This document shows, one piece after another, positions 8,217 through 23,623 of a stretch of DNA of 64,000 nucleotides (the first letter of the stretch is position 1; every line of letters starts with the position of its first letter). The position numbers were made by a program, and so were the translations under genes. Under the pieces are notes generated by a model, which was not told where the DNA came from, made no database searches, and worked only from the letters and a program-made list of their open reading frames with translations. Origin of the DNA: Methylophilales bacterium MBRSF5 (GTDB lineage Bacteria > Pseudomonadota > Gammaproteobacteria > Burkholderiales > Methylophilaceae); contig CP011001.1 of the NCBI GenBank assembly GCA_001044335.1, forward strand, positions 496,001 to 560,000, written 5' to 3'.

Positions 8217-8283
8217 AGTTAGTGTTTACAGAATATTTATTACTTATCGACACAAATTATTAAATAGATTATAGTATGTGAAT

Positions 8284-8607: not shown

Positions 8608-8646
8608 AAGTTAACTTTTTAACTTTAATTATTTTAGGAGAAAAAT

Positions 8647-9294
8647 ATGAGATATCTACCTCTCATTCTATTTAGCATATTTTCAATTGAAATATATGCA
8701 GCGCCTATGAGCTATAAAGGCTCGGTTACTTCAATGAGCGATATCGGAAAACGATATACATCTTTGGAGAGTAGTTATGCTTACGATGTTAAAAACTCAA
8801 TTGGCGTGAAGCTTTTTCATATGGACAATAACAGTCGCATTAGAGATGCGTTTGAAATTAACCATATACATCGCTTATACCGCAAGAACGCGAAGCAGTC
8901 ACAAATGAACATTTGGTTGTTTGGCGGGGTTGGTTATATGGAGGGCTCTAATGAAAAGCTCAATGGCGATAATCATTTTGGTACTGCGTATGTAAGTCCA
9001 GGTATTCAATGGGATTACGAAACCAAGAGGGTGTACGCGCTAGCAAGTCATCAGCTGATACGAGGAGAGTCTGTTAATCACGACACAACTAAACTTAAAG
9101 CTGGGTTTTCATTTTACGAAACAGGATTTAATGAGACGCAGCCCTGGTTTATATTGGAAGCGTCAAATATTAACGGCATAACCCCAAAGGTTGAAATAAC
9201 ACCAACGATTCGTTTAATCAATAAAGCGTTTTATTTAGAGGCTGGAGTGTCCAATATGGGCAACCCAAAAGTTCATCTAATGTACACATTTTAA
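8647..9294 (+). CDS. Predicted outer-membrane beta-barrel protein
   Basis: 215 residues with a signal peptide (MRYLPLILFSIFSIEIYAAP). After it come alternating short strands rich in Tyr, Trp and Phe (SLESSYAYDVKNSIGVKLF, NIWLFGGVGYMEG) and a terminal aromatic residue (KVHLMYTF), the typical C-terminal signature of outer-membrane barrels. AGGAG precedes the start. It is the second gene of the metal operon, so it may move or sense a metal across the outer membrane. The specific role is inferred. Confidence 0.6.
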   Translation: MRYLPLILFSIFSIEIYAAPMSYKGSVTSMSDIGKRYTSLESSYAYDVKNSIGVKLFHMDNNSRIRDAFEINHIHRLYRKNAKQSQMNIWLFGGVGYMEGSNEKLNGDNHFGTAYVSPGIQWDYETKRVYALASHQLIRGESVNHDTTKLKAGFSFYETGFNETQPWFILEASNINGITPKVEITPTIRLINKAFYLEAGVSNMGNPKVHLMYTF

Positions 9295-9311
9295 ATTTTA
9301 AGGAAATTATT

Positions 9312-9623
9312 ATGAAAAAATTATTTTTATCATTGCTACTCATCAGCAGCAGTCTATTTGCATCAACTCAAAAGATAGAAGTGAATGGAATGGTATGTGC
9401 ATTTTGTGCACAGGGTATTGAAAAAAGCTTATCTAAATTCGAAACCACAAAAGATGTGTATGTAAATTTAGATGAGGGTTTTGTGATTTTAGAAAACAAA
9501 GCTGAAGCAGTCAGTGAAGACAAAATTAGAACGATTATCACTGACTCTGGATATGATGTAACTAAAATATCTTTAATCAATGAAACTGCTGATGAGGTAA
9601 GGAAAAAATATGAAAACAAATGA
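9312..9623 (+). CDS. Periplasmic MerP-like heavy-metal-binding protein
   Basis: 103 residues: signal peptide (FLSLLLISSSLFAS) then one HMA domain with metal motif NGMVCAFCAQGIEKSLSKF (CxxC). The fold predicts delivery of a soft metal ion to a membrane partner, as MerP does for MerT. It overlaps the following MerT-like gene by 14 bases, supporting a MerP-MerT-like pair. No merA or merR lies in this module, so the metal need not be mercury. Confidence 0.82.
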   Translation: MKKLFLSLLLISSSLFASTQKIEVNGMVCAFCAQGIEKSLSKFETTKDVYVNLDEGFVILENKAEAVSEDKIRTIITDSGYDVTKISLINETADEVRKKYENK

Positions 9624-10005
9624 TGAATTAAATGAGCTGGATAAGATTAAAAATATATCCATTCTGTCATTATTTACCAGCACAGGCACAATTTTATGTT
9701 GTGCCTTGCCCGCATTACTGGTGACTATTGGAGCGGGTGCTGCACTCAGTTCTGTGATTTCAGTGTTCCCGCAAATTGTTTGGGTGTCAAAGTACAAGGT
9801 TTATATCTTCACGGCAGCATTTATTCTAATAGTGCTTTCTGGGTATCTGCAGTGGTATGCAAGAAAGTTACCCTGTCCTAGTGATAAATTATTAGCTGCT
9901 AAATGTATGAGTGCCAGAAGGGTGTCTTTGGTGATTTACTTTGTATCGGTGGGGATATTGCTAATTGGATTTACTTTTGCGTTTGTAATCCCATATTTTT
10001 TATAG
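9610..10005 (+). CDS. MerT-like inner-membrane metal transporter
   Basis: 131 residues with about three membrane helices. The first helix carries a vicinal Cys pair (ILCCALPALLVTIGAGA), the hallmark of MerT-type transporters, and a second Cys set lies in the loop (KLPCPSD...AAKCM). It presumably accepts metal from the upstream MerP-like protein. It is the last gene of the four-gene operon and is followed 32 bases later by a strong terminator. Confidence 0.75.
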   Translation: MKTNDELNELDKIKNISILSLFTSTGTILCCALPALLVTIGAGAALSSVISVFPQIVWVSKYKVYIFTAAFILIVLSGYLQWYARKLPCPSDKLLAAKCMSARRVSLVIYFVSVGILLIGFTFAFVIPYFL

Positions 10006-10357
10006 ATATATTTAAGATTCATAACAAGCTTAATTAAACCACCTTCGGGTGGTTTTTTATACCCAACCACTACTTACGATTACCTGCAAAAATTTGTTTA
10101 GGGTATCCAAATATAAGGGGGTAGGGGTGGGGGATAACATACCCTTACAGACACTAAAATAATGCGTGTATGGTGCTTATGCAACGCCATGTCAATATGT
10201 TTTGTATACATTTAATCGTATTTCCTTTCCAATCGTCCCAATAATCTTTCTTTATCTCTAGGTTGTAGTAGTGTGTATTAAAAATAAGAATTTCTGTCGC
10301 TCGATTAAAATATTCTTTGCTATATAGTGTTTATGTGATGTGTTAAAATCGATAAAT
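10006..10357. other. 352-bp gene-free stretch with terminator and G-rich repeat
   Basis: It holds the terminator at 10038-10058 and a G-rich stretch at 10087-10136. That stretch loosely resembles module direct repeat 1 (shared CAAAAATTTG, then GGGG runs ending GGATA). Beyond that I see no supported gene; the short reading frames on both strands lack start signals. Confidence 0.5.
10038..10058 (+). terminator. Rho-independent terminator after the metal operon
   Basis: Stem ACCACC / GGTGGT with a TTCG tetraloop, followed directly by a T-run. The identical stem-loop-tail is used at 52966-52986 in the core chromosome. Confidence 0.9.
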
Positions 10358-10735
10358 ATGAAAGACCAGTTTAAAGATTCCATCATGTATGCTGAAAAGT
10401 TGTTATTGATTGTTGTTGCAATTGCAACTTGTTGTGCAGCAATTATTGAAATAAAAAGCATGATTTTGGAAATGCATGTCACGCTTGCTGACTTGTTATT
10501 ACTCTTTATCTATTCAGAAATTCTAGGAATGGTTGCCGTGTTTTGTAAAAGTCAAAGAATTCCAATATCTATTCCGATGTTTATTGCTATCACAGCGCTA
10601 TGCCGACTCATAATCCTAAAAGGCGATGGTTCAGACCCAACCAATATTCTTATTGAGGCAGGTGCAATTTTATTGATTGCTTTAGCAATTTTAATAATAA
10701 ATTATCGCCCCACCAATAAACTTCTTGATGAATGA
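10358..10735 (+). CDS. PsiE-family membrane protein
   Basis: 125 residues from ATG 10358 (an in-frame GTG lies six codons upstream). Four hydrophobic segments are visible: LLLIVVAIATCCAAIIEI, LADLLLLFIYSEILGMVAVF, IPMFIAITALCRLII and EAGAILLIALAILII. The pattern LLxLFxxSEILxM and the length match the phosphate-starvation-inducible PsiE family, whose role is poorly known. It is the last plus-strand gene of the module that ends at the direct repeat at 10794. Confidence 0.65.
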   Translation: MKDQFKDSIMYAEKLLLIVVAIATCCAAIIEIKSMILEMHVTLADLLLLFIYSEILGMVAVFCKSQRIPISIPMFIAITALCRLIILKGDGSDPTNILIEAGAILLIALAILIINYRPTNKLLDE

Positions 10736-10793
10736 TTTTTTGTATTTTAAATTTAACCAAATTTTCACACCTCCAAGAATCAAACAAAACTTT

Positions 10794-10847
10794 CCAAAAA
10801 TTTGAGTGTGACACCTAGATAATATCCCATATGGGTGGGGGGAGATA
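10794..10847. repeat. Module direct repeat 1, right copy
   Basis: 54 bases matching 8164-8216 with four substitutions and one extra G, same orientation. The palindrome CCCATATGGG is at 10826-10835. This copy lies between two converging genes, so it is unlikely to be a promoter. Confidence 0.8.
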
Positions 10848-10883
10848 TAGTGCCTTTTAGCAGAACGCATATGTTTTACATTC

Positions 10884-11396
10884 CTATGAATCATCTTGGA
10901 CAATCTTATTACCATCGGCATCTCTAGGTTGCGGTTCAATGAACTCAATAGTCGTGCCTTCCCAACCTTCTGCGTCCATCTGTTTTGCCTGTTCAGGTGT
11001 TACTCTCAAGGTCTTATATTCCTCATCTGTTACAGGTCTTCTGCCACCATCAGGTGTAGGTATTAAGTCCACATAATCTCTTCCATCAGAATCAGGTATG
11101 CCAGTAATAACTCTCAATGGTCTATTTACATTATGATTAATATTCCCATCAAGCGTATTCCCTTGAACAACCTTTCCATCAATCCTATCTAGAATGATTT
11201 CTGTAGCACGAAGGTCACCTTCTTCTGCTTTCTGAACTAATGATTCAACAACCTTAAGTGCCTTCTCATAGTCATTAGCACTAACCACCTCATTAATCAT
11301 GTGCTTGAACAGTTTGTTCTTCTCACGATTCTTACGACTAGAATGATTGTTACCTAGATTTGCCTTACTTAATGCTTCCTTATGCTTATCGTCCAT
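10884..11396 (-). CDS. DUF5681-like / small-terminase-like protein
   Basis: 170 residues. The N-terminal half reads NLGNNHSSRKNREKNKLFKH, then KALKVVESLVQKAEEGDLRA and TEIILDRIDGK. This is the pattern of DUF5681-type proteins, often found with phage packaging genes. The C-terminal half is acidic and Pro-rich with no motif I recognise. It overlaps the upstream 49-residue gene by 11 bases, so both belong to the minus-strand backbone operon that starts with rep. A packaging role is inferred from the family and the satellite-like context. Confidence 0.5.
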   Translation of the reverse strand: MDDKHKEALSKANLGNNHSSRKNREKNKLFKHMINEVVSANDYEKALKVVESLVQKAEEGDLRATEIILDRIDGKVVQGNTLDGNINHNVNRPLRVITGIPDSDGRDYVDLIPTPDGGRRPVTDEEYKTLRVTPEQAKQMDAEGWEGTTIEFIEPQPRDADGNKIVQDDS

Positions 11397-11535
11397 CTTT
11401 GTTTTCCTTATTAATCAGTTCATCAAAAATGCTTACAATCTTGTCGTTACTCTCATCAAGAAGACCAGTTGGTTTCTCTTTCTTCTTCTCATCAAGTAAT
11501 GACTTTAGGGTCTTATCAATGTCATAGTTCGCCAT
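11386..11535 (-). CDS. 49-residue backbone protein interrupted from its operon by the czc module
   Basis: The ATG is at 11535 (MANYDIDKTLKSLLDEKKK) and the TAA at 11388-11386. The product is small, charged and without a known motif. Its start region is repeated at 20729-20762, where it overlaps the stop of the 110-residue gene. Before insertion of the czc module the two genes would therefore have overlapped directly (ATGGCGAACTATGA). It overlaps the next gene by 11 bases. Confidence 0.6.
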   Translation of the reverse strand: MANYDIDKTLKSLLDEKKKEKPTGLLDESNDKIVSIFDELINKENKDGR

Positions 11536-11546
11536 TCTTTTTTGCC
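11513..11546. repeat. Module direct repeat 2, left copy (34 bp, perfect)
   Basis: All 34 bases are identical to 20729-20762, in the same orientation. The repeat contains the start codon region of the 49-residue gene and the stop of the 110-residue gene. The GC-rich czc module lies exactly between the copies. Confidence 0.93.
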
Positions 11547-11563
11547 AGCTCGCCAATCTTCAT
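11540..11563 (-). pseudogene. First eight codons of a second merR, cut at the module junction
   Basis: On the minus strand, ATG at 11563 opens MKIGELAK, the exact N-terminus of MerR regulators and of the intact merR at 20312. It then runs into direct repeat 2 and stops after KNGEL at 11522. The DNA differs from the intact merR start at several third positions, so it is a different gene. The junction lies in GGCAAA, present in both merR and the backbone gene. It is divergent from the CDF gene across a MerR operator, the usual layout. Confidence 0.75.
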
Positions 11564-11580
11564 TTATTTAATCTCTGTGC

Positions 11581-11611
11581 TTGACTCTATAGTGACTATA
11601 GAGTTTAAACT
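11581..11611 (+). promoter_or_regulatory. MerR-type promoter/operator of the CDF gene
   Basis: -35 TTGACT (11581-11586) and -10 TAAACT (11606-11611) are separated by 19 bases, the long spacer typical of MerR-activated promoters. The spacer region holds a perfect 21-bp inverted repeat at 11584-11604 (ACTCTATAGT, G, ACTATAGAGT), close to known CadR/PbrR/ZntR operators. It should be activated by the metal-bound MerR protein encoded at 20312-20743. Confidence 0.88.
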
Positions 11612-11640
11612 GCACAAACTGGATAGAACAAGGGTTTTTT

Positions 11641-12540
11641 ATGACAACCACATGCGGTGGCAATTGCCAAAGTGACGCGACGCAGAATACTCCCCAGACT
11701 GCCGAGGTACATGATGCTTCTCATGGCGGCTTTGTTAGTGAGTACCATGTACCCAAGATGGACTGTCCTTCAGAGGAAGGCATGATCCGTATGGCATTGG
11801 ACAGTGTGGAACCTAAAGTTACATTGGAATTCGATACTCCCAAGCGCAAGGTGCGTGTCTACCATGGTGATAACGCTGACCTTATTGAAAAAAGAATGCA
11901 ATCAGTCGGTCTGGGCGCGAGGCTTGAAAGCACAACGCCCGTCGCCAGCGAGTCCATCGTCCGTGCAAAGGCGTCCGCAAAGCAGGAGGCAGAAAGAGAA
12001 GCTGGTATTCTCAAGTGGCTACTGGCAATCAATGGCATCATGTTTGTCATTGAAATCACTGTCGGCTGGTGGGCGCAATCCACTGGTTTGATTGCGGACT
12101 CCCTGGATATGTTCGCTGATGCCGCCGTCTACGGCGTGGCGCTGTATGCCGTAGGGCACAGTGTGCGGATGAAGTTGCGTGCAGCCCATTTTTCCGGTTG
12201 GCTTCAGATCATTCTCGCCTTGGGCGCTTTGGGCGAGGTGGTAAGGCGATTGGTATTGGGTAGTGAACCGGTTTCCACTTTGATGATGAGCTTCGGGCTT
12301 GTTGCCTTGGCGGCCAATGTGACCTGTCTGCTGTTGATTGCCAAAAGCCGGGATAGCGGCGCCCATATGAAAGCCAGCTGGATTTTCTCCGCCAATGACG
12401 TGATTGCCAATCTAGGGGTGATCCTTGCCGGTGGATTGGTGGCCTGGACGGGCTCACGTTATCCAGACTTGGTGATTGGCCTTATCATCGGTTTGATTGT
12501 GTTGAATGGCGCGCGCCGCATCTTGCAACTTAAGTCCTGA
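11641..12540 (+). CDS. Cation diffusion facilitator with N-terminal metal-binding domain
   Basis: 299 residues. A short Cys-containing N-tail (TTTCGGNC) is followed by an HMA-like domain around residues 30-95 (YHVPKMDCPSEEGMIR). Then come the CDF membrane part, LIADSLDMFADAAVYGVALY and the second metal-site helix SWIFSANDVIANLGVIL. CDF proteins export divalent metals from the cytoplasm with proton exchange. It is preceded by a MerR-type promoter, so Cd/Zn/Pb is likely. GC-rich codons mark it as foreign to the host. Confidence 0.8.
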   Translation: MTTTCGGNCQSDATQNTPQTAEVHDASHGGFVSEYHVPKMDCPSEEGMIRMALDSVEPKVTLEFDTPKRKVRVYHGDNADLIEKRMQSVGLGARLESTTPVASESIVRAKASAKQEAEREAGILKWLLAINGIMFVIEITVGWWAQSTGLIADSLDMFADAAVYGVALYAVGHSVRMKLRAAHFSGWLQIILALGALGEVVRRLVLGSEPVSTLMMSFGLVALAANVTCLLLIAKSRDSGAHMKASWIFSANDVIANLGVILAGGLVAWTGSRYPDLVIGLIIGLIVLNGARRILQLKS

Positions 12541-12734
12541 GACACCGGGCACAATATGAACAACAAGCAATCGTCTTTTTTTGATAACTCGCCAATAAAA
12601 ATCCTCGACCTGGCTCGCTTTGATAAGCGGATAACAGGTAAACGAAAGGCGCTGGGACAATCGGGGATTGAATCCGTAATCAAGGGTGGACTGCTTCGCA
12701 GTTTATTCCATTTCATTGGGGTTATGTTCGGTTT

Positions 12735-13091
12735 ATGAGTCGAAAAGCACTGTCTTATCTGCTGTTACTCTTGATTGCACTGCAATCAGTGACAGCTATG
12801 GCTGACGTGCATCCCATTAATTATTCGGATACAGCCCCTTATTCCTCTGATTTCATCGATGGCTCATCATCGGGAGTACTGGATAGCTCGACCGCTACTG
12901 ATCCCACTGATCAGAATATGTCCACTGACTGCCTGTTTCATTGCCATCACCATGGCTGCCATTGCCATGTCTATTTATCCGGTAACCTGACTCACCCAAA
13001 CTTTTTGCATAAACATTCGTTGCATAACGACTCTCAAGCCCTCATTCCCGAGGCCCCATCCTCGTCGCTGTATCGCCCTCCAATCGCCTGA
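12735..13091 (+). CDS. Secreted His/Cys-rich protein preceding czcC
   Basis: 118 residues with a signal peptide (ALSYLLLLLIALQSVTAMA). The centre holds a dense metal-ligand cluster (CLFHCHHHGCHCHVYL). The position directly ahead of czcC and the small size recall CzcI-type periplasmic proteins of metal-efflux operons. The sequence itself was not matched to a named family. It probably buffers or senses Zn/Co/Cd in the periplasm. The 194 bp between it and the CDF gene hold no convincing gene. Confidence 0.6.
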   Translation: MSRKALSYLLLLLIALQSVTAMADVHPINYSDTAPYSSDFIDGSSSGVLDSSTATDPTDQNMSTDCLFHCHHHGCHCHVYLSGNLTHPNFLHKHSLHNDSQALIPEAPSSSLYRPPIA

Positions 13092-13172
13092 TTTTAACGA
13101 TTATGTTTTTTCTGTGTTACCGTTATCGTTGCAACGCGCGGTTTGAATTATCTTAAATAAAGGATCTACCAT

Positions 13173-14522
13173 ATGCTATCAATACTATCAATACGTACTG
13201 CGCCGGGTTCTGGCGCTTTGGGGCGGAGGAATATCAAAAGCCGATGTATTCTGTTCAGTTTATTATTTTTCATTTCTTCGTCGGGGCTTAGCGCCGAGCC
13301 TGGGGACTCAACGATCACGCTGACCAATGCGGTGCAGCGCTCCCTGTCACAAAACCCGTCTTTGAAAGTTTTTCCCTACCGCTACGCAGCCCTTCAAGGG
13401 CAGGCCGAAACAGCCGGGTTAAGACCGGCGTATGAGATGGGATTTGACGCTGAAAATGTCGGGGGCACTGGGGACTTCAGCGGCGCAGGTGGTGCTAAAC
13501 TCACCATTGCGCTGTCTTCGGTCATCGAAATGGGGGATAAGCGCGCGGCACGGCAAGGCGTAATCTCCCACAGTCGGTCGGTGCTCAATGCCAGCCGACA
13601 GGTGGAATCCTTGGCCTTATTGGGCGAAGTCACCCGCCGTTACGTCGATGTGCTAGCGGCACAGGAGCAGGTCACCATGGCTGGCGAGGCCGTCCAGTTG
13701 GCGAGCGAGAGCTTACGCATTGTGAAAAAGCGGGCTACGGCGGGAGCGACACCCGAGGCGGAAGTCAAACGGGCACAGGTCGCTGCCGAGCAAGCGAAGC
13801 TCGCTTTGCTTTCGGAGCAGCAACGGCTTGCTTATTTGAAAGTGTCGTTGTCTGCCCTGTGGGGGGTAACCTCACCGGACTTTGACAAAGTGGAAGGTGA
13901 TCTATTCCAGTTTGGCGAGGACGTGGCATTCGACCTGTTGTACGCCAAAGTTGAAAAAAATCCTGCGATAGAAGTATTCGCAGCAGAGTCCCGCCTCAAA
14001 GAAGCAGAAATACGCCTTGCTCAAACCCAATCCAGTGCCGATATCAGTTGGTTGGTGGGGGTTCGTCGCTTGCAGGAAACCGATGACACCGCGTTGGTAG
14101 CGGGTTTCAGCATGCCGTTGTTTTCCGGCAAGCGAAATGTCGGCGCCGTTTCGACCGCGTTGGCCGAAAAAAATCAGGTGTTGGCAGAGCGCGATGTAAT
14201 GCTGCTGGATCTACACACGCAACTGTTCCGGGCTTTTCACAACCGCAAACAAGCCATTGTCGCGGTAGAGGCACTGCGCACCGCCATCATTCCCGCCCTT
14301 GAGCAGGCCCTGGTAGAAACTCAGGCGGCCTATCAACGCGGTCGCTACGGGTATCTCGACTATGTCAGCGCGCGGCAGGAATTATTGAGCGCCAGGCGCA
14401 CCCAGATCGAAGCGGCCGCAGCCGCCTTAACCTATGGTGCAGAAATTGAGCAGCTAACAGCAGAGCCCTTGGCCTTGACACAGTATGGCGAAGACAACAC
14501 ATTTTCAGGAACCCCACAATGA
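13173..14522 (+). CDS. czcC: Outer-membrane factor of a heavy-metal RND efflux system (CzcC-like)
   Basis: 449 residues of the TolC/CzcC family. A signal-like hydrophobic segment (CILFSLLFFISSSGLSAEP) is preceded by about 30 extra residues, so the true start may be further in. The body has the paired helical repeats of outer-membrane factors (LLGEVTRRYVDVLAAQEQV; AYQRGRYGYLDYVSARQELL). It forms the exit duct for CzcBA. Its end overlaps czcB by 4 bases (ATGA). Confidence 0.87.
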   Translation: MLSILSIRTAPGSGALGRRNIKSRCILFSLLFFISSSGLSAEPGDSTITLTNAVQRSLSQNPSLKVFPYRYAALQGQAETAGLRPAYEMGFDAENVGGTGDFSGAGGAKLTIALSSVIEMGDKRAARQGVISHSRSVLNASRQVESLALLGEVTRRYVDVLAAQEQVTMAGEAVQLASESLRIVKKRATAGATPEAEVKRAQVAAEQAKLALLSEQQRLAYLKVSLSALWGVTSPDFDKVEGDLFQFGEDVAFDLLYAKVEKNPAIEVFAAESRLKEAEIRLAQTQSSADISWLVGVRRLQETDDTALVAGFSMPLFSGKRNVGAVSTALAEKNQVLAERDVMLLDLHTQLFRAFHNRKQAIVAVEALRTAIIPALEQALVETQAAYQRGRYGYLDYVSARQELLSARRTQIEAAAAALTYGAEIEQLTAEPLALTQYGEDNTFSGTPQ

Positions 14523-15460
14523 AATCAAATACCCAGTTAAAAAAATCATTTATCCGTCTAATTACGTGTTGCTTTGCGATCACCCTGTTGTCTGGACAAA
14601 CTTTCGCCGAGACGGGTCACGGAGAAGAGGAAGAGCACGGTGAAGAAGGCCACGTCGAGCTGACCCAGGAGCAGATAAAACATGCCGGCATTACGCTGGC
14701 AACCGTTACCTCGGGCACCATCCGCGATGTTTTGCCAGTATATGGCGTCGTCGCCACCAACGCAGAGCGTGTACAGTCGGTAACGGCACGCTTCGACGGC
14801 GTTATTCGGGAAGTTAAAAAAAGTGTTGGTGATCCGGTTCGCAAAGGCGAACCCCTGGTGACTGTGGAAGCGAATGAAAGTCTGAAAACCTATTCGATAG
14901 TATCCGCACTCAATGGTGCCGTTACCCAGCGGAATGCAAACGCTGGCGAGCACACTACGGATATCCCGTTGTTGGTAGTACAGGATTTCTCAACGGTTTG
15001 GGTGGAGCTGTCGGTTTTTCCCAAGGATGTTGCTCAGGTTGAATTAGGCCAGCGGGTTCGCATTCTCAGTCTCGATTCGACCCATATCGCAGAGGGAAAA
15101 ATCATCTATATTGCGCCGCTTGGCCAAACTGGTAATCAGGCCATTATGGCGCGCGCTTTGATCGACAACCCGAATGGCATTTGGAAACCCGGTCTCTTTG
15201 TCAACGCGCAAATCACCCGCGCCGAAATAGCCGCTCCAATGGTGATCCGCAACGAAGCCTTGCAAATCGTCGAGGATAACCCTGTCGTTTTTGTTAGGGG
15301 TGAGGAAGGTTTTGAAGCACGTACAGTGACTTTGGGGCGAACCGACGGTGAGCTAACCGAAGTGGTGGCAGGTCTGTCCGCAGATGAAGTGTATGTCAGC
15401 AAAAACAGTTTTATTTTGAAAGCGGAATTGGGTAAAGGGGAGGTTGGCGATGATCATTAA
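14519..15460 (+). CDS. czcB: Periplasmic adaptor of the heavy-metal RND efflux system (CzcB-like)
   Basis: 313 residues: signal peptide (LITCCFAITLLSGQTFAE), an acidic/His patch (GHGEEEEHGEEGHVE) that can bind metal, then the barrel-sandwich and beta-barrel regions of membrane fusion proteins (VGDPVRKGEPLVTVEAN; GAVTQRNANAGEHTT). It bridges CzcA to CzcC. It is shorter than long CzcB forms (about 400-500), lacking a large C-terminal domain. It overlaps czcC by 4 bases. Confidence 0.88.
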   Translation: MKSNTQLKKSFIRLITCCFAITLLSGQTFAETGHGEEEEHGEEGHVELTQEQIKHAGITLATVTSGTIRDVLPVYGVVATNAERVQSVTARFDGVIREVKKSVGDPVRKGEPLVTVEANESLKTYSIVSALNGAVTQRNANAGEHTTDIPLLVVQDFSTVWVELSVFPKDVAQVELGQRVRILSLDSTHIAEGKIIYIAPLGQTGNQAIMARALIDNPNGIWKPGLFVNAQITRAEIAAPMVIRNEALQIVEDNPVVFVRGEEGFEARTVTLGRTDGELTEVVAGLSADEVYVSKNSFILKAELGKGEVGDDH

Positions 15461-15531
15461 TAGCTCCCTGAAAGACATTCTGGATTCCATCGGCCGGAGC
15501 AGCATTCTATCGCCGCTCAACGAAGGAGTGT

Positions 15532-18500
15532 GTGATGATCGATAAACTCATTCAATTTTCCATCGCACGCCGCTGGCTGGTGATGTTTCTGGTGCTGGTA
15601 ACGGGCGCCCTGGGTGTCTGGAACTATCAGCAGCTACCCATTGACGCGGTACCCGATATCACCAATGTCCAGGTGCAAATCAATACAGAAGCCCCAGGCT
15701 ACTCACCGCTGGAAGTGGAGCAACGCATTACCTACCTGGTAGAACTGGCGATCACGGGGTTGCCCTATGTTGAGAGTACCCGTTCGATATCACGCTATGC
15801 CCTGTCTCAGGTGACCGTGGTGTTTGAAAAAGGCACGGACATTTACTTTGCCCGCAATCTTATCAACGAGCGCTTGCAGCAGGCGAAAAGCGAGATGCCT
15901 TCGGGAATCGATCCGGCGATGGGACCCGTTGCCACAGGCCTCGGTGAAATCTTTCACTATGCGGTGCATGCGAAACCGGGCGCCTTGATGGAAAATGGTG
16001 AGCCGTATGATGCGACGGCCTTACGCACCTTGCAGGATTGGGTGATACGTCCGCAATTGCGCCTGGTTCCAGGTGTTACCGAAGTCAATACCATTGGCGG
16101 CTTTGAAAAGCAGTTCCACGTCACCCCGGAACCGTCAAAACTGCTGGCCTACCAGCTCAGCTTCGATGATCTGGTGGCGGCATTGGAGAAAAACAACGCC
16201 AACATCGGTGCCGGATATATCGAAAAAAATGGCGAACAATACCTGATTCGTGCCCCCGGACAGGTAGCTGACATCCCGGCGATCGAAAAAATCATCGTCG
16301 CCCGTCGTGACGGCCTACCCATAACCGTGGCTGACGTGGCCGAGGTGGGATTCGGCAAGGAATTGCGCACCGGTGCTGCGACGCTCGATGGCGAGGAGAC
16401 GGTCTTGGGTACCGCCATCATGCTACTGGGCGGCAACAGCCGGACGGTTTCCCAAGCGGTGTCGGCCAAGTTGCTGGAGATCAACAAAACACTGCCCGAA
16501 GGCGTGGTTGCAGAGCCGGTTTATAACCGTACAGTACTGGTCGATAAAACCATTTCCACGGTACAGACCAACCTGGTCGAAGGCGCGATTTTGGTTGTCG
16601 TCGTGCTCCTGGTCATGCTCGGCAATGTCCGGGCGGCCTTACTCACCGCAATGGTGATCCCTTTGTCAATGTTGATGTTGATGACAGGCATGGTGCAAAC
16701 CAAGGTCAGTGCCAATCTGATGAGTTTGGGCGCACTCGATTTTGGCTTGATTGTGGATGGCGCGGTGATCATTGTCGAAAACTGCATTTTGCGCCTAGCC
16801 GGGCGGCAACACCATCTTGGGCGTACCTTAAAACTGGACGAACGATTTCAAACGGTGTTTGCGGCCACCCGTGAGGTATTTACACCGAGTTTGATCAGTG
16901 TATTGGTAGTGATTCTGGTGAACTTACCCATCCTGGCGTTAACCGGCGTGGAAGGCAAAATGTTTACGCCCATGGCCATGGCGGTGATCATGGCCTTGCT
17001 GTCTGCATTGGTGCTGTCACTCACCTTTGTGCCTGCGGCCGTGGCGTTGTTTATGACGGGCCATATTGAGGAAAAAGACAATTTTATTGTTCGCCACTCC
17101 AAGCGGTTTTACCCCTCGGTATTGGTGTGGGCACTTAAGTTTCGCGTACTCGTATTATCTGCGGCTCTGATCTTTGTGGTTTTGGTTGGCGCACTGGCCA
17201 CACGGATGGGGACGGAATTTATCCCGAATCTGGATGAGGGAGATATTGCCATTCAGGCGCTACGAATACCGGGTACCAGTCTCACTCAATCCCTTGATAT
17301 GCAGTTTCAACTGGAAAAAGCGGTGCTGGAAATCCCGGAAGTTAAAACCTACTTCTCGCGCGTCGGGACAGCCGAAGTTGCCAGTGACCCCATGGGGCCG
17401 AACATTTCCGATGGTTATGTCATGCTCAAGGATCACAGTGAATGGCCTGACCCTGACAAAACCAAAGCGCAGTTGCTGGAGGAAATCGGTGACAAGTTAT
17501 CATTATTGCCGGGTAATGCCTTCGAGATCAGTCAGCCGATCCAGCTGCGTTTTAACGAGTTAATATCGGGTGTGCGTTCCGATCTCGGTATCAAGGTGTT
17601 TGGCGACGATTTGTCGCAACTGCTTAAATCGGGCGGCGAAATCGCGGCGGTATTGAACGGCATTGAGGGCGCCGAAGGGGTTAAGGTCGAGCAGGTGTCT
17701 GGGTTACCTATTCTATCCATTAATGCGGATCGTTCAGCCATGTATCGTTATGGTTTGAATGTCGCCGATGTGCAGGACGTAGTCGCCGCCGCCACGGGTG
17801 GTGAGGAAGCCGGCCTGATCTTTGAGGGCGATCAACGGTTCTCGATAGTGGTGCGGGTAGCCGAGCGCGTCAGGGGTGACTTGCGCGCGTTGGAGCGTTT
17901 GCCGATACCGCTGCCAGACGGTGGCTACGTGCCACTACGGGAAGTGGCGAGTCTCACGCTTGCGCCTGGACCGAATCAGATCTCTCGTGAAAACGGCAAG
18001 CGGCGACTGGTGGTCAGCGCCAATGTTCGCGGTCGCGATTTGGGTGGCTTTGTGGCTGAAGTTCAAGGCAAAGTGGCGCAACAAGTGAAATTGCCACCTG
18101 GTTATTGGCTGGAATACGGCGGCACGTTTGAGCAACTGCAATCAGCCTCTCAGCGTTTAAGCCTGTTAGTCCCCGTCACTTTGGTGATGATTTTTGCATT
18201 GCTGATGATGACCTTTGGTTCGGCAAAAGATGCGGCATTGGTCTTTAGTGGCGTACCGCTGGCGCTGACCGGTGGCGTTATCGCCTTGTGGTTAAGAGAT
18301 ATTCCCCTCTCGATCACAGCCGGCGTTGGGTTTATTACCTTATGCGGGGTTTCTGTACTGACGGGGGTCATGATGGTGTCGGCCTTTCGAGATGAGCTCA
18401 ATCGGGGTGAATCCGTCGAGCAGGCGATTCAGGGTGGCGCCATGTTGAGATTGCGGCCGATTTTGATGGTCGCTTTAGTGGCTGCATTAGGCTTCTTGCC

Positions 18501-18675
18501 GATGGCACTTAACACCAGTACTGGGGCCGAAGTCCAAAGACCACTGGCCACGGTCGTCATCGGCGGCATTATCTCATCCACGTTACTCACGCTACTGGTG
18601 CTTCCCGGCTTGTATCGACTGGCCTGGAGAAAGCCAAAAGAGATTGATGACAACGGCGATCCGATCACTCAGTAA
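15532..18675 (+). CDS. czcA: Heavy-metal RND efflux pump (CzcA-like)
   Basis: 1047 residues, full length for the HME-RND class. The first helix region (LVMFLVLVTGALGVW) is followed by the HME signature helix LGALDFGLIVDGAVIIVEN, whose two Asp and Glu are the proton/metal relay. The second half has the matching helices (ITLCGVSVLTGVMMVSAF). It drives proton-dependent export of divalent ions such as Zn, Co or Cd; exact specificity is not set by what I can see. AAGGAG precedes the ATG. It is GC-rich. Confidence 0.93.
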   Translation: MMIDKLIQFSIARRWLVMFLVLVTGALGVWNYQQLPIDAVPDITNVQVQINTEAPGYSPLEVEQRITYLVELAITGLPYVESTRSISRYALSQVTVVFEKGTDIYFARNLINERLQQAKSEMPSGIDPAMGPVATGLGEIFHYAVHAKPGALMENGEPYDATALRTLQDWVIRPQLRLVPGVTEVNTIGGFEKQFHVTPEPSKLLAYQLSFDDLVAALEKNNANIGAGYIEKNGEQYLIRAPGQVADIPAIEKIIVARRDGLPITVADVAEVGFGKELRTGAATLDGEETVLGTAIMLLGGNSRTVSQAVSAKLLEINKTLPEGVVAEPVYNRTVLVDKTISTVQTNLVEGAILVVVVLLVMLGNVRAALLTAMVIPLSMLMLMTGMVQTKVSANLMSLGALDFGLIVDGAVIIVENCILRLAGRQHHLGRTLKLDERFQTVFAATREVFTPSLISVLVVILVNLPILALTGVEGKMFTPMAMAVIMALLSALVLSLTFVPAAVALFMTGHIEEKDNFIVRHSKRFYPSVLVWALKFRVLVLSAALIFVVLVGALATRMGTEFIPNLDEGDIAIQALRIPGTSLTQSLDMQFQLEKAVLEIPEVKTYFSRVGTAEVASDPMGPNISDGYVMLKDHSEWPDPDKTKAQLLEEIGDKLSLLPGNAFEISQPIQLRFNELISGVRSDLGIKVFGDDLSQLLKSGGEIAAVLNGIEGAEGVKVEQVSGLPILSINADRSAMYRYGLNVADVQDVVAAATGGEEAGLIFEGDQRFSIVVRVAERVRGDLRALERLPIPLPDGGYVPLREVASLTLAPGPNQISRENGKRRLVVSANVRGRDLGGFVAEVQGKVAQQVKLPPGYWLEYGGTFEQLQSASQRLSLLVPVTLVMIFALLMMTFGSAKDAALVFSGVPLALTGGVIALWLRDIPLSITAGVGFITLCGVSVLTGVMMVSAFRDELNRGESVEQAIQGGAMLRLRPILMVALVAALGFLPMALNTSTGAEVQRPLATVVIGGIISSTLLTLLVLPGLYRLAWRKPKEIDDNGDPITQ

Positions 18676-18687
18676 TAAATACCCGCA

Positions 18688-18719
18688 GGATCGCGGCAGG
18701 TAACCTCTTGCCGCGATCC
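18688..18719 (+). other. Strong hairpin after czcA
   Basis: An 11-bp perfect GC-rich stem (GGATCGCGGCA with TGCCGCGATCC) around a 10-base loop. No T-run follows, so it is more likely a transcript 3'-end stabiliser or a repeat element than a simple terminator. Confidence 0.6.
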
Positions 18720-18758
18720 ATCCAACAGCAATAACGACACTTTTTTTGGAGTATTTAC

Positions 18759-20045
18759 ATGAAAAAAATTACCGCTTTTATTCACCATGTTCGATCCGCC
18801 GAGGCACAGCGAAGCCGTGCGCCCATTCAAAGGCTGGCCGATATTGTTTCGGGATGGTTTGTGCCTGCAGTGATAGTTGTCGCCGTGATCGCTTTTATTG
18901 CATGGCTCATATTTGGCCCTGTACCCGCCTTTAGTTATGGCCTTATTGCGGCTGTTAGTGTCCTGATTATCGCCTGCCCCTGCGCCTTGGGACTGGCCAC
19001 GCCGATGTCGATTATGGTTGGCGTTGGTAAGGGGGCGCAGGCAGGCGTGCTGATTAAGAACGCCGAGGCGCTGGAACGCATGGAAAAGGTTGATACGCTG
19101 GTGATTGATAAAACCGGAACGTTGACCGAGGGTAAGCCGACTGTGACAAAAATCGTTGCTGCTGAAGGTTTTAGTGAGGATGAATTGTTGTTATTGGCCG
19201 CGTCTCTGGAACAGGGCAGCGAACACCCGCTGGCCCATGCCATAGTTGTTGCTGCGCAGGAGAAAAGACTGGACTTAGCGGCGGCAGAGGATTTTGACTC
19301 GCCAACCGGCAAAGGCGTGATCGGCAAAATCAATGGCCGGGCTGTGGCGCTCGGCAATGTCATATTAATGGAAGAACAATCCATTAATGTGTCGTCTTTA
19401 TCGGCGCAGGCCGATGAACTGCGAAGCGATGGCGCAACGGTGATTTTTATAGCCGTGGGGGGCAAACCCGCTGGATTGCTGGCGATTGCCGATCCGATCA
19501 AGGAAACCACTCCGGAGGCTATCAAGACCCTGCACGCGCAGGGCCTCCGTATTGTCATGCTGACCGGCGATAACCGCCGCACGGCAGAGGCCGTGGCCAA
19601 GACACTTGGAATTGAAGAAATCGAAGCAGAAATCCTGCCTGAAGATAAAAGCCGCATCGTCAAAAAACTGCGTGAGGAAGGGAAAATCGTTGCTATGGCC
19701 GGGGACGGCACTAACGATGCTCCGGCTCTGGCCGCCGCCGATGTCGGCATAGCCATGGGCACCGGCACCGATGTGGCCATGGAAAGCGCGGGCGTAACAT
19801 TGCTCAAAGGCGATCTCACCGGCATTGTCCGCGCCCGTAAGCTCTCCGTGGCCACCATGCGCAATATACGGCAAAACCTGTTCTTCGCCTTTGTCTATAA
19901 TGCAGCAGGTGTACCAATCGCAGCTGGCATTCTCTTCCCAGTCTTTGGCATTTTGTTATCTCCGATTATAGCAGCAGCAGCCATGTCGCTCTCTTCGGTC
20001 AGCGTTATTGCAAATGCTTTAAGACTTAAAATACTGCATGTTTAA
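18759..20045 (+). pseudogene. N-terminally truncated copper-type P-type ATPase
   Basis: 428 residues where CopA-type pumps have 700-850. It keeps [12 protein letters not shown], the phosphorylation motif [36 protein letters not shown] and the Cu-type end signatures ([14 protein letters not shown]). It lacks the HMA domain, the first four helices and the TGE actuator domain, so it cannot complete the pump cycle as known. The first 14 residues ([14 protein letters not shown]) do not look like CopA and may come from another gene. An intact ribosome site (TTGGAG) suggests it is still translated. Confidence 0.8.
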
Positions 20046-20091
20046 AAAATATATTGGTTAACCTCTTCTTGTCTCCGTCGAACCAGTCCTT

Positions 20092-20241
20092 TCAGCTTAC
20101 GACCCCCAGCCCAAACCCAGCGCATGAATTGCTCAGGTACTTCGGCTCAGCTTGAACATCACTTTTTCTTTGCGATTCAGGTTGCTCTGACTTGCCTTGA
20201 CTGGGGTTACAACCGCAACAGGTCTTTGAGTCTACAGACAT
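20092..20241 (-). pseudogene. 49-codon N-terminal remnant of a MerR-controlled metal gene
   Basis: The minus-strand ATG at 20241 reads MSVDSKTCCGCNPSQGK, a Cys-rich start like those of metal efflux ATPases and the CDF at 11641, and stops at 20092. The preceding DNA is a MerR-type promoter on the same strand (20271-20301), so a regulated efflux gene once stood here. After about 30 residues no known domain follows. It is best read as a deletion scar, though a short metal-binding peptide is possible. Confidence 0.5.
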
Positions 20242-20270
20242 AAATGGCTCTTGTTTACAGGATAAAAGAT

Positions 20271-20301
20271 AGTGTAAACTCTATAGTAACTATAGCTTCA
20301 A
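20271..20301 (-). promoter_or_regulatory. MerR-type promoter/operator reading away from merR
   Basis: Read on the minus strand: -35 TTGAAG (20301-20296), a 19-base spacer and -10 TACACT (20276-20271). The inverted repeat at 20278-20298 (ACTCTATAGT, A, ACTATAGcTt) matches the operator at 11584-11604 at most positions. It lies between merR and the remnant at 20241, the classical divergent layout. Confidence 0.8.
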
Positions 20302-20311
20302 GGGTGGAGTG

Positions 20312-20743
20312 ATGAAAATTGGTGAACTGGCAAAGCGCAGTGGCTGCTCAGTGCAGACCATTCGGTACTATGAGAAGGAAGGGCTTATATCGGCCCAATC
20401 ACGTACTGAGGGTAATTTTCGCCTTTACGATAAGCAGACACTTGAAAAACTCCTGTTTATAAGGCATTGCCGCTCTCTGGGTTTAACCTTGAAAGAAATC
20501 AAACAGCTCATCCTGCTTCAAAGCACACCAGAATCCGATTGCGAGGAAGTCAACGACATAATCAATACCCATCTTCACCTTGTGGAATCGAGTATTGAAG
20601 AGCTGAAAAAACTTCATAACGATTTGAGTGCCTTGAGACATCGATGCACGACCCCAAAAACGGTCGGCCAATGTGGAATCTTAGAACGCCTAGTCGAAAA
20701 CACTTCAAGCAAGAGTGGTTCCAAAGTTTTATCAATGTCATAG
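20312..20743 (+). CDS. Cd/Pb-responsive MerR-family regulator
   Basis: 143 residues from ATG 20312. The winged helix is at residues 1-70 (MKIGELAKRSGCSVQTIRYY, then NFRLY), followed by a dimerisation helix. Cys77, Cys112 and Cys121 match the three-Cys metal site of CadR/PbrR-type proteins. It should activate the promoter at 11581 and the one at 20271. Its last codons (SMS, TAG) lie inside direct repeat 2, so its native C-terminus may have been replaced at insertion. Confidence 0.85.
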   Translation: MKIGELAKRSGCSVQTIRYYEKEGLISAQSRTEGNFRLYDKQTLEKLLFIRHCRSLGLTLKEIKQLILLQSTPESDCEEVNDIINTHLHLVESSIEELKKLHNDLSALRHRCTTPKTVGQCGILERLVENTSSKSGSKVLSMS

Positions 20744-20762
20744 TTCGCCATTCTTTTTTGCC
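20729..20762. repeat. Module direct repeat 2, right copy (34 bp, perfect)
   Basis: Identical to 11513-11546. It contains the 3' end of merR on the plus strand and the 3' end of the 110-residue backbone gene on the minus strand. Confidence 0.93.
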
Positions 20763-21070
20763 CTTTCTAAATCAATAGAACCTCTAGGTTTAGGCATATC
20801 ATTAATGCTCTTTATCATCTTCTCAACCTGTTCCTTTGAGATTGATTGTTGCTTATCGTAGTCTTTAATATCAACCCTTATATCACCACCATTTGCATAG
20901 CGTTCTTTAAGTTCTTGAAGTTCTTCTTCCTTGCGTTTAATGATTCCTTCTGCCGTATCCTTACGCATCATGAATCGTAGTCTATGGTTAATGTAATCTT
21001 TCACACCACGCAATTCTTCAATAGTTTCCATCTCGTCTATTTGTGGTTTCCATAATGCTTCTTTTGCCAT
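20738..21070 (-). CDS. Backbone protein of unknown function, coiled-coil
   Basis: 110 residues, highly charged, with a likely coiled coil (KRKEEELQELKERY) after INHRLRFMMRKDTAEGI. I do not recognise the family. It lies downstream of rep on the same strand. Its stop overlapped the start of the 49-residue gene before the czc module split them; the repeat restores both ends, so it remains complete. Confidence 0.6.
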   Translation of the reverse strand: MAKEALWKPQIDEMETIEELRGVKDYINHRLRFMMRKDTAEGIIKRKEEELQELKERYANGGDIRVDIKDYDKQQSISKEQVEKMIKSINDMPKPRGSIDLERAKKNGEL

Positions 21071-21171
21071 AAGTTCTTTTCCTTTATCTAAAAGTTATCA
21101 ATACACAAGTTCACACAAAACATACACAATGTGTTTCCTTGTGGTTCTCTATATCTATCCACAAACACACA

Positions 21172-21187
21172 ACACCCTTTAGGGTGT
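21172..21187. terminator. Small hairpin between rep and the next backbone gene
   Basis: ACACCC and GGGTGT pair around a TTTA loop, in the 140-bp gap downstream of rep. There is no clear T-run on the minus strand, so attenuation rather than full termination is possible. A near-match to a DnaA box (CTATCCACA) lies just upstream at 21155-21163. Confidence 0.35.
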
Positions 21188-21210
21188 GTGAGTTGTGGTA
21201 GAAGAGTTCG

Positions 21211-23166
21211 TTAATACTTAATGTGGTATTTATCATTCTCAATTAACCAAATCCTGTTGGTTCTTCCATCACGATTACCTGTATCTAAAACCATGCCACG
21301 ATACTTTTCAGCAGTTCTTAATGTAGAGATACATCGTTTAACTATCTCCCTCGCTCTTGGTTTATTTGTTCCTTCAACCCATTGGGTCGTTACATCTTTC
21401 ACAACTGTTTCATAGTCATCTTCATGGTCGTTGTAAGCATCAAGTCTTTTTACTAATAGGGCATAGATTTGCTTATTGTTTTCACCATCAATCTTGACCT
21501 CATATGAATCTTTTTTAACTGAAGTGTAGGTAGGAATAACTACTGCGGTATTGGCATTCTCATCGTTGTAGTATTGTTTATCTAACTCAACTGTCTCTAG
21601 TTTGTAACCAACATTGTGTCCGTCTTTTGCATTCTTAATCTTTTCAAACTTAAGAGAATGGTTATCACTATGCTTCTCAATGCTATAAATAAGGTCTGCA
21701 CCTGCATGTAATGCACTACCACCTCGCATACCTTTACCTTTATCTTTTCCGTTATGGTGGATATTGATTACCAAAGAGTTGGTTGCTTGAGATATTCTTT
21801 CTGACTGGATAATTGCCATACCCATCTTGCCATTAGCATTCTCTTCCTCACCGCCACATATCTTGTTAAATGTATCTAGAAAGATAACTCCATCTTTAAA
21901 TCCATCTAACTGTAATGCTTCTATGAATTGATTTACTGATGCTTCTGAAGTGATATTAAGACTTGCACCTTCACCACCCAGTCTGAACTTATTAGATAAG
22001 TCTTCTTGCGTATATCCATGATATTCCGCCCACCCATCTACTCGCATAGCAACACCACGATAGTCTTCAAAGGCACAATATCTAACTGGCACATTCTTCT
22101 TAATATCAAATCCCAACCATTGAGATTTAAAGCATAGACATAGTGCTAAATCTACTGAAGCAAATGTTTTACCTGCCTGACTAGACCCATAAATAAACAT
22201 AACTCCCTTTGATGTGAGGTGCTGACTAACCAACCATTCAATAGGTGGCATTTGCATTAACTCTTTGTAGGTTCTGAACCCAAATGGATTATCTTTAGGT
22301 GGTGTTGGTAGTGGATTATCTTGATAATGAGTTCTCCAAATACTATCAACTGATTTCTTTACTTGAGATAACTCTAGAGGTGGTTTACATCTTTCATCAT
22401 TAAGAACTAATGCTTTTGCAAGAACCTGTTCTTTACTTAATCCTTGATTCACTAGAGTGCCAACGATGCTAGTAATGGCATTATCTCGTCCACCCTCTAA
22501 AATGCTGTCAGAAGTGCTTAAAATCGCTTGTGAGGGCATGTCCTGACCTGTATACACATCGTTACTACTGACATATTCGTCTTCGTAGTTTTTTGGGGTA
22601 TCAGGTTTTAAAGGCACACCCCCCAAGTATTCAATTACCGCATAATCTTTTCGTTCTGGGTGACAGGTTGGTAAGTAATAGAATTGGCATGGGTTCTTGA
22701 ATGCTTTATCTAAATGACCACTATTGTTAATCATATGAAGGGAAGGGCATAAGTCCATAAACTTCCTTCCTACATACTCAAGATGTATCTTCTCAATAGG
22801 ATTGGCAAAGGGAATGATTATCCTATAGCAATACCTCTTATCAGTTGGGTCATGACTATAGGTAGTGTTAATTACTGCTTCTATACCAGTATTCCTAATG
22901 TCCTTCTTTAACTGCTCAAAGACATCAAGGTAGTATTTATCTATATCAAACACTAGGGCAGATACGGACATGACATTGTCATTCTTTCTATACCCATTAG
23001 ATATATCTGCAAAGACCACACCTGCAACTGAATCCTTAAACTCGGTAATAGCAAAACCTATTTCTGCATATTCTTTGATGGTCATTACTTTGGTGCGACC
23101 TTCGGTATATTTGGCATCATCTACCCTTACCATCGGTAGTTCAAATACTTTCATTTTTGTATCCAT
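21211..23166 (-). CDS. Primase-helicase (RepA-type) replication protein of the element
   Basis: 651 residues. The N-terminal part has ALVFDIDKY near residue 74 and TTYSHD...CYRIIIPF near residue 105, like primase-polymerase domains with a DxD motif. A RecA-type helicase follows: Walker A IYGSSQAGKTFAS near residue 325, Walker B GVIFLDTFNK near residue 430, and the RepA signature VINIHHNGKDKGKGMRGGSA. Such proteins start replication of satellites and plasmids. It sits directly downstream of alpA. The start at 23166 lies just outside an M-rich alternative. Confidence 0.8.
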   Translation of the reverse strand: MDTKMKVFELPMVRVDDAKYTEGRTKVMTIKEYAEIGFAITEFKDSVAGVVFADISNGYRKNDNVMSVSALVFDIDKYYLDVFEQLKKDIRNTGIEAVINTTYSHDPTDKRYCYRIIIPFANPIEKIHLEYVGRKFMDLCPSLHMINNSGHLDKAFKNPCQFYYLPTCHPERKDYAVIEYLGGVPLKPDTPKNYEDEYVSSNDVYTGQDMPSQAILSTSDSILEGGRDNAITSIVGTLVNQGLSKEQVLAKALVLNDERCKPPLELSQVKKSVDSIWRTHYQDNPLPTPPKDNPFGFRTYKELMQMPPIEWLVSQHLTSKGVMFIYGSSQAGKTFASVDLALCLCFKSQWLGFDIKKNVPVRYCAFEDYRGVAMRVDGWAEYHGYTQEDLSNKFRLGGEGASLNITSEASVNQFIEALQLDGFKDGVIFLDTFNKICGGEEENANGKMGMAIIQSERISQATNSLVINIHHNGKDKGKGMRGGSALHAGADLIYSIEKHSDNHSLKFEKIKNAKDGHNVGYKLETVELDKQYYNDENANTAVVIPTYTSVKKDSYEVKIDGENNKQIYALLVKRLDAYNDHEDDYETVVKDVTTQWVEGTNKPRAREIVKRCISTLRTAEKYRGMVLDTGNRDGRTNRIWLIENDKYHIKY

Positions 23167-23200
23167 TATTGAGTTAATTTAAGAGAGAAAAGGGTGCTAA

Positions 23201-23392
23201 TTAACTGTCCATTTTCTTCGTTGATTGCTCATCAACCCACTTAAGAATATCTTCCGATTTCCAAGCAGTTACACCTTGAGAAATCTTGATGCTTTGAGGG
23301 AATTTTCCCTCTTTCATAAGACCCCAAATGGTGCTTTTTCCCATGCTTAATATTTCAGATAACTCATTAATTCTGTAATAAAGTTTTTCCAT
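23201..23392 (-). CDS. AlpA-family regulator (right copy)
   Basis: 63 residues: YRINELSEILSMGKSTIWGLMKEGKFPQSIKIS then WKSEDILKWVDEQ, the AlpA layout of a helix-turn-helix followed by a conserved FP and a Trp. AlpA proteins control integrase expression and excision. It is 34 bases ahead of rep on the same strand, an arrangement typical of P4-like and PICI-type satellites. Confidence 0.85.
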   Translation of the reverse strand: MEKLYYRINELSEILSMGKSTIWGLMKEGKFPQSIKISQGVTAWKSEDILKWVDEQSTKKMDS

Positions 23393-23496
23393 GTTTTGTT
23401 TCCTTCTTTCTATTTATTATCAATTAATTAAAAACAAGACTTAAAGTAAATTGCACTTCTTTAAATCAATTGTTTACTCGTTCTTCCACATACTGT

Positions 23497-23543
23497 TTGG
23501 TATAATGTTCTTACCGAATCCGATGGGACATTAACGAGTGTCC
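23497..23543 (+). promoter_or_regulatory. Extended -10 promoter and inverted repeat upstream of the 268-residue gene
   Basis: TGGTATAAT (TATAAT at 23501-23506) is an extended -10 box with no good -35. It is followed by GGACA and TGTCC as an inverted repeat spaced by eight bases, at about 23527-23543. This fits a regulated promoter for the gene at 23624. Confidence 0.45.
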
Positions 23544-23623
23544 ATACATACATTTAATCATGGAAATTTAGGGTTCAATGGGGAACAGAAACGCACTATC
23601 TAATCCCTATTTTTGAGGAAGAT

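Follow-up and report, generated by a model that had tools for sequence, protein, structure and literature searches.

How did a 9.2-kb czc module come to lie between two overlapping genes of a genomic island, framed by perfect 34-bp direct repeats? Island gene blocks that carry neither a transposase nor an integrase are common, and their route of entry is usually guessed. The module considered here is found in a 64,000-nucleotide stretch of Methylophilales bacterium MBRSF5 (Methylophilaceae; GenBank assembly GCA_001044335.1, contig CP011001.1, positions 496,001 to 560,000 of the forward strand), which is called the window hereafter and to which the coordinates refer. At this locus the target, the donor and one joint are legible at base level, and they indicate that microhomology-guided illegitimate recombination probably produced the module, rather than a transposase or a site-specific recombinase.

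The flanking repeats rebuild two overlapping backbone genes

The 34 bases at 11513-11546 recur without a mismatch at 20729-20762, and the identity does not extend by a single exact base on either side. They are the only two copies in the window and form its longest exact direct repeat, while the number of exact 34-mer pairs expected in 64 kb is 3e-11. When the genome (a single contig of 1,352,814 bases) was searched with 234 bases centred on the left copy, three hits had E <= 0.001: besides the left copy, these were the right copy (37 nt, 97%) and, in inverted orientation, an operator-like repeat at window positions 20271-20302. At this threshold the 34-mer is not dispersed in the genome beyond its two copies. 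The repeats and the adjacent backbone genes are as follows.

11513-11546, no strand: left 34-mer, 23 target bases (11513-11535) plus 11 bases (11536-11546) common to target and donor
20729-20762, no strand: right 34-mer, contiguous with the 110-residue gene, with all 34 target bases present
20738-21070, minus strand: 110-residue backbone gene
11386-11535, minus strand: 49-residue backbone gene
10884-11396, minus strand: 170-residue backbone gene, overlapping the 49-residue gene

When the flanks are fused on a single 34-mer, the 110-residue gene ends in KKNGEL and its stop, the 49-residue gene starts in another frame with MANYDIDKTL, and the two overlap by 14 nt (ATGGCGAACTATGA). The 49-residue gene overlaps the 170-residue gene by a further 11 nt, so that the three genes once formed one overlapping run, which was split after its first member. 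An earlier note, made from the letters of the window alone, had claimed that the two 34-mers are identical, that they hold the stop of the 110-residue gene and the directly overlapping start of the 49-residue gene, and that the insertion leaves both genes intact; the comparison bears out all of this, and both genes are complete upon joining the flanks. The czc module is an insertion, and both backbone genes are rebuilt around it. The 170-residue gene was considered as a terminase small subunit, which was dropped with no Pfam or PHROG match in its support.

Eleven base pairs at the left joint are common to donor and target

The composition of the left repeat becomes visible in two sequences that carry the donor form of the czc segment, the conjugative plasmid of Shewanella sp. 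ANA-3 (NC_008573.1) and a genome of the same class as the host (G1154). In both, homology to the window begins at 11536, within cadR and 28 nt from its start codon, and cadR is intact leftwards. They share with the 34-mer only its last 11 bases, TCTTTTTTGCC, which are identical at 11 of 11 positions at the joint; since homology starts at 11536 in both donors, these bases belong to donor and target, and the first 23 to the target only. Among 2,000,000 random joints between island backbone and plasmid, just six shared at least 11 bases. The earlier note had taken the 34-mer for a single 34-bp duplication, which needs to be revised, as only its first 23 bases need be duplicated target and the last 11 are in the donor as well. 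As the alignments read, the "34-bp duplication" has two parts, 23 bp of target that were duplicated and 11 bp of microhomology between donor and target.

11536-11546, no strand: microhomology TCTTTTTTGCC, target 110-residue gene end and donor cadR codons
11522-11563, minus strand: 13-codon in-frame cadR' fusion MKIGELAKKNGEL followed by a stop, with the stop/start overlap with the 49-residue gene kept
11580-11611, plus strand: MerR/CadR-type operator-promoter (label inferred), with an inverted partner at 20271-20302 (88%)

The joint also produced an in-frame fusion, in which the nine first cadR codons lead into the final codons of the 110-residue gene (MKIGELAKKNGEL and a stop). The TGA of this fusion overlaps the ATG of the 49-residue gene, just as the stop of the 110-residue gene does, and the operator-like repeat upstream of cadR' was retained. 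Genes downstream of cadR' may be read from the donor cadR promoter. As a consequence, the 49- and 170-residue genes, severed from their upstream gene, would now stand behind that promoter, while translational coupling would be kept via the in-frame cadR' mini-gene.

The czc segment and its donor pool

Searching PLSDB with window positions 11400-19300 gave matches in 3,830 plasmid records, and by tally the ANA-3 plasmid was the only one to hold at least 80% of this query in one place (95.5% identity). It aligns with the window from 11536 to 18802 in one piece of 7.3 kb at 95.5%, and G1154 matches the same interval at 93.4% with both end points as in ANA-3. The Shewanella baltica plasmid pSBP1 matches from 12679 to 18802 at 92.6% and shares the right end point with the other two; its left part is broken by an IS256-type element and does not cover the left joint.

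11547-18802, plus strand: czc segment with CDF, hypothetical, TolC, CzcB, CzcA and the P-II gene start, 95.5% identical to the ANA-3 plasmid and 93.4% to G1154

The cluster on the ANA-3 plasmid has the same order (cadR-CDF-hypothetical-TolC-CzcB-CzcA-P-II). It differs in that cadR is cut to nine codons in the window, the P-II gene is reduced to its start and fused to part of an ATPase gene, and another CadR is added at the right. Identity to ANA-3 is uneven along the segment, with 98.5-100% per 400 bases at 12.3-16.3 kb and 87-95% at 16.3-18.7 kb. The five genes for CDF, hypothetical, TolC, CzcB and CzcA have no internal stop, and their synonymous divergence from ANA-3 is lowest in TolC (0.003; 9 of 10 changes non-synonymous) and highest in CzcA (0.30; ratio 0.05). 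The czc segment hence appears to be a recent, mosaic acquisition from a pool that also feeds Shewanella plasmids. The G+C content in 500-base windows is 0.47-0.57 at 11.5-20 kb, 0.43 at 20.0-20.5 kb and 0.30-0.41 around. Over about 1.2 kb (14301-15500), the window, ANA-3 and G1154 are 99.5-100% identical to one another, with 90-95% to G1154 in the neighbouring bins, a pattern of recent recombination within the donor pool.

In a sample of 187 genomes of the family, the strongest other match was 67% over 1.6 kb, with shorter pieces reaching 83%, and among 274 genomes of the class the strongest remaining match was 71% over 3.1 kb. A near-match search of E. coli genomes returned nothing. Near matches to the island occurred in 463 phage records, of which the 10 listed all hit tRNA-Ser genes.

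A second joint inside the module, and the right end

Beyond 18802, at a distance of 44 bases from the P-II gene start, the sequence leaves this gene and continues, with the reading frame kept, as the C-terminal half of a P-type ATPase. The resulting chimeric open reading frame (ORF), 18759-20045, consists of P-II-like first codons and a P-type ATPase without its N-terminal half. At this inner joint the shared bases amount to at most ~5 bp, a value blurred by comparison to a relative of 77% identity, which is the best found for the ATPase part (18798 to 20008). The P-type ATPase of ANA-3 itself was ruled out as the source, being 73.8% identical over 130 bases and 65.7% over 239 bases.

18798-18802, no strand: second joint, in-frame fusion of P-II start and ATPase
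18803-20045, plus strand: P-type ATPase C-terminal part, in a 428-aa fusion ORF from 18759, best relative found at 77% DNA identity
20092-20241, minus strand: 49-aa ORF behind the operator-like repeat 20271-20302, with no Pfam family
20309-20743, plus strand: second CadR/PbrR-type regulator, its final four residues and stop spelled by the right 34-mer

No close counterpart of the second CadR was found among plasmids. At the protein level, one of 3,084 plasmid records was 60-80% identical and the others were below 60%, the best-covered match reaching 55.4%; at the DNA level, in 72,556 plasmid records, the matches listed were only 69.7-75.9% identical over 10-25% of the query.

Favoured mechanism

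On the far side of the module, the island sequence is taken up again 34 bases behind its point of departure, and 23-34 target bases are present twice. Microhomology-guided illegitimate recombination, which I consider the probable origin of the module, could produce this by several sub-routes. Template switching is the likeliest and takes about half of that probability. Incoming plasmid DNA would pair at the 11-mer with a 3' end of the island during its replication, or with an end left by a break, and that end would be extended through czc; at least one further switch would lead from the P-II gene into the ATPase, and the copying strand would then re-enter the island 34 bases upstream of where it had left. 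Alternatively, and with the same product, a fragment could have been end-joined between two staggered or sister ends with fill-in. Template switching explains the return to the target and the mosaic insert in one scheme, and so does the end-joining route. The P-II'/ATPase' fusion at ~18798-18802, as a second illegitimate joint within the module, counts in favour of such joining. Plain plasmid integration through a single crossover at the 11-mer was discarded as an explanation, since it predicts 11-bp repeats and donor cadR to the left of the right copy, where 23 target bases are found instead.

Alternative explanations

Pfam matches above cut-off in the module were confined to efflux, P-type ATPase/hydrolase and MerR families, with NCBIfam in agreement, and neither a transposase nor a recombinase turned up; nine stop-to-stop frames reach 150 aa or more, all of them module genes or antisense to the ATPase, and the search did not include all frames below 150 aa. 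A weak Pfam match below the cut-off linked CzcB to a phage cement domain. Inverted repeats were not found within 40 nt of the module ends, the best pairing being 9 of 12 (no null run). The earlier note had likewise seen neither a transposase nor a recombinase inside the module, as holds within the limit set by the short frames, and its proposal of an insertion mechanism other than transposition agrees with the lack of a transposase and of terminal inverted repeats.

In site-specific recombination, a circular 9.2-kb molecule with a 34-mer att site would have entered a single 34-mer of the island, with XerCD or an integrase in trans, possibly the island's own, as the enzyme. Integrative mobile elements exploiting Xer (IMEX) use XerCD, the identical direct repeats at the module ends have about the length of dif or lox-type sites, and an enzyme acting in trans requires no recombinase in the module; the 34-mer also resembles the att core of the island at 11 positions, a likeness equalled by 9% of 3000 random backbone 34-mers. 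However, only 11 of the 34 bases exist on the donor form in ANA-3 and G1154, where the 23 bases to the left of the 11-mer are cadR coding sequence. Because the two donors carry just these last 11 bases, inside an intact cadR, their form of the module did not have the 34-mer as an att site, and the circular module at which the earlier note hinted, with insertion at a matching site, finds no support. The 34-mer has no dif likeness (against a dif consensus, each of 1000 shuffles equals or exceeds its score) and little dyad symmetry (no null run), and it is coding sequence of two overlapping genes that is not dispersed in the genome, all of which makes this route very unlikely. Transposition in trans with an unusually long target duplication is highly improbable. 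Long target repeats are reported for two elements of one family, IS1549 and IS1634 (direct repeats of 8 to 514 bp, against 5-6 bp as usual for the family; PMC2266710), and an IS1634-type element is present on a related Shewanella plasmid, but besides the missing inverted repeats and transposase, the left end of the module lies inside donor cadR with no annotated element boundary there in ANA-3, and an 11-bp identity of donor and target is unexpected.

The joint may instead have been made in another copy of the island, or by several events of capture, amplification and trimming, after which homologous recombination in the flanks would have brought the finished module into this island. In favour of this, at least two sources contributed to the module, which contains an internal fusion, the donor identity is itself mosaic along the segment, the 110-residue gene was not found in any other genome searched, and the primase of the island has only distant relatives (13 other family genomes). 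Such a history would still require the same illegitimate joint at an earlier time, moving the event without replacing its mechanism, and is unlikely, though not to be neglected. An artefact of assembly or contamination could be suspected from near-identical DNA in a distant genus and from the use of an assembly with no reads, but is barely credible for a single-contig genome scored as 99.99% complete and 0.01% contaminated, with a precise in-frame fusion, a right-hand module part of a different source and a CzcA that is 0.3 synonymous changes per site away from ANA-3. Once the att site (at odds with the donors found), the single crossover and transposition (no ends or enzyme found) are set aside, what remains is illegitimate joining guided by 11 bp at one end, with a return 34 bases behind the exit.

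Several points weigh against this preferred explanation. No close donor was found for the right-hand 1.9 kb, so that the right joint is unread and microhomology is seen at the left joint only; the 11-mer contains a T6 run, which eases pairing; and the likeness of the 34-mer to the att core is weak, not nil. The mosaic could stem from several older events, and these data do not distinguish template switching from sister-end joining or staggered-break capture. An island lacking the module was not found in the genomes searched, and the empty site is thus reconstructed, not observed. Homology-facilitated illegitimate recombination (HFIR), moreover, is described as usually leaving a target deletion, not a duplication, as rare in an E. 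coli conjugation assay, in which 3 of 4 HFIR joints had no homology, and by the authors as mostly confined to competent species (PMC3240628).

The tRNA-Ser island and its relatives

The earlier note had overlooked that the module sits within a 19.2-kb tRNA-Ser island, which has att repeats and an integrase of its own.

6721-6763, no strand: outer attL, 3' end of tRNA-Ser(TGA), 43-nt direct repeat
25906-25948, no strand: outer attR, 98% identical to attL
24422-25726, minus strand: island tyrosine integrase
23201-23392, minus strand: AlpA-type regulator/excisionase
21211-23166, minus strand: RepA/primase-helicase type protein (AAA_25 and PriCT_1)

The 3' end of tRNA-Ser(TGA) (6645-6734) is repeated over 43 nt at 98% identity, at 6721 and 25906, and pairs of TAGGGAACAGT are found near both island ends. 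A relative (G001) has a single-copy attB at the same tRNA, which identifies the 19.2-kb island as a true insertion. The interval 6721-25948 accordingly shows a repeated tRNA 3' end, an adjacent integrase and an empty attB in a relative, as is characteristic of tRNA islands. In three further loci of other relatives (L095, L096, L097), ~0.3 to 5 kb of differing content lies behind the same tRNA-Ser, with an autotransporter-like and a CobW-like gene in L097 (by eye only), and the site looks like a hotspot.

A 48-nt direct repeat (8164-8211 and 10794-10841, 92%) brackets the other cargo block of the island, which holds CopZ/MerT-like genes (8278-10005) and a small gene at 10340. In the genome the repeat is clearly present twice, with a further likeness of 60% at 10086, and the block it flanks is possibly an older insertion with a long repeat. 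An exact repeat of ~23 nt was also seen at 10038-10060 and 52966-52988, its first copy overlapping a terminator-like hairpin behind the MerT-like gene and its second lying just behind the 3' end of tRNA-Glu (53032-53107, minus strand).

The 110-residue gene had no relative in 186 other genomes of the family, none in phages at E <= 0.1, and none by a peptide-pattern scan of IMG/VR, which reaches close relatives only; the pattern MANYDIDKT did not occur in viral and genome contigs. For the 170-residue gene, one weak match in 398 other genomes of the order and one weak phage match were obtained, and none by the IMG/VR pattern scan. No relative of the primase was found by pattern scan of IMG/VR or genome contigs, its distant relatives being those in 13 other family genomes, and none of the integrase by pattern scan of IMG/VR. 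Integrases 53-54% identical to that of the island (G094, G081) pointed to sister islands. At the same tRNA-Ser, one sister island (L092, 6802-8737) has 1.86 kb between 74-nt repeats of 95% identity, and another (L093, 8226-8356) has one copy. The 74-nt repeat is tRNA-Lys-derived and occurs in several, mostly same-direction copies in genomes of one genus (g15), and a 20-nt part of it is the mark of fGI-2 reported for Ca. Methylopumilus (PMC10872708). As the repeat is a dispersed sequence with an already reported part, the difference between these two islands was not counted as support for the same process. The tRNA-Lys 20-mer of the sister islands, together with genome sizes in the family, suggests an OM43-type member of the Methylophilaceae as the host.

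Comparison with known systems

As this locus shows, a long and perfect repeat on both sides of an insert is not necessarily a recombinase site or a classical target duplication; part of such a repeat can be donor/target microhomology, visible only after the donor is found. Two overlapping genes can also survive an insertion into their operon and retain, at the sequence level, their stop/start coupling, here in a small-genome lineage with up to 100% identity per 400 bp to a Shewanella plasmid. More broadly, tRNA islands in streamlined marine methylotrophs might, while replicating, acquire their cargo as copies of incoming conjugative plasmid strands, with a microhomology switch in and a switch back behind the exit leaving long target repeats; the block between the 48-nt repeats (8164/10794) could then be an older product. 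This is speculative, and I regard it as unlikely. Judged by titles and the starts of abstracts, none of the papers listed on OM43 islands and metal efflux, ANA-3 czc, long-repeat IS elements, tycheposon-like cargo and the candidate recombination routes looked like an account of the czc insertion, which does not prove absence, as most subscription papers lay outside the search.

The flexible genomic islands (fGIs) of Methylophilaceae (Ca. Methylopumilus, OM43) resemble this island in their location at a tRNA gene, their integrase and att repeats, and their cargo linked to metals (in fGI-2 it includes czcD), whereas they lie at tRNA-Ser(gga)/tRNA-Arg, tRNA-Lys and tRNA-Met, and not at tRNA-Ser(TGA) as here (PMC10872708). 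That paper describes Methylophilaceae islands and small xerC-bordered insertions, and its section on islands has none like the czc insertion.

The preferred mechanism resembles HFIR in that foreign DNA is joined to a chromosome via short microhomology and without a dedicated enzyme. Illegitimate joints mostly have 3-10 bp of microhomology (PMC3240628), and the left joint here has 11 bp. Unlike in HFIR, long anchoring homology was not seen, the right-end donor not having been found, and the target is duplicated with both backbone genes complete, whereas HFIR generally loses target DNA (PMC3240628). Duplications did arise in the same conjugation assay, in which 56 of 60 clones gave a duplication product in the polymerase chain reaction, but they were ascribed to single crossovers of circular molecules (PMC3240628), and these need homology that the donor here lacks. 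RecA-independent template switching of the polymerase between homologous DNAs has been proposed for E. coli after conjugal transfer (PMC5350276).

Another related scheme is microhomology-mediated templated insertion. Such template switching goes by the names of microhomology-mediated break-induced replication (MMBIR) and fork stalling and template switching (FoSTeS). While the present case differs from events of this type in that one joint is well read and the insert is 9.2 kb long, it shares with them a microhomology joint, a mosaic insert from more than one template and a short duplication by re-entry behind the exit.

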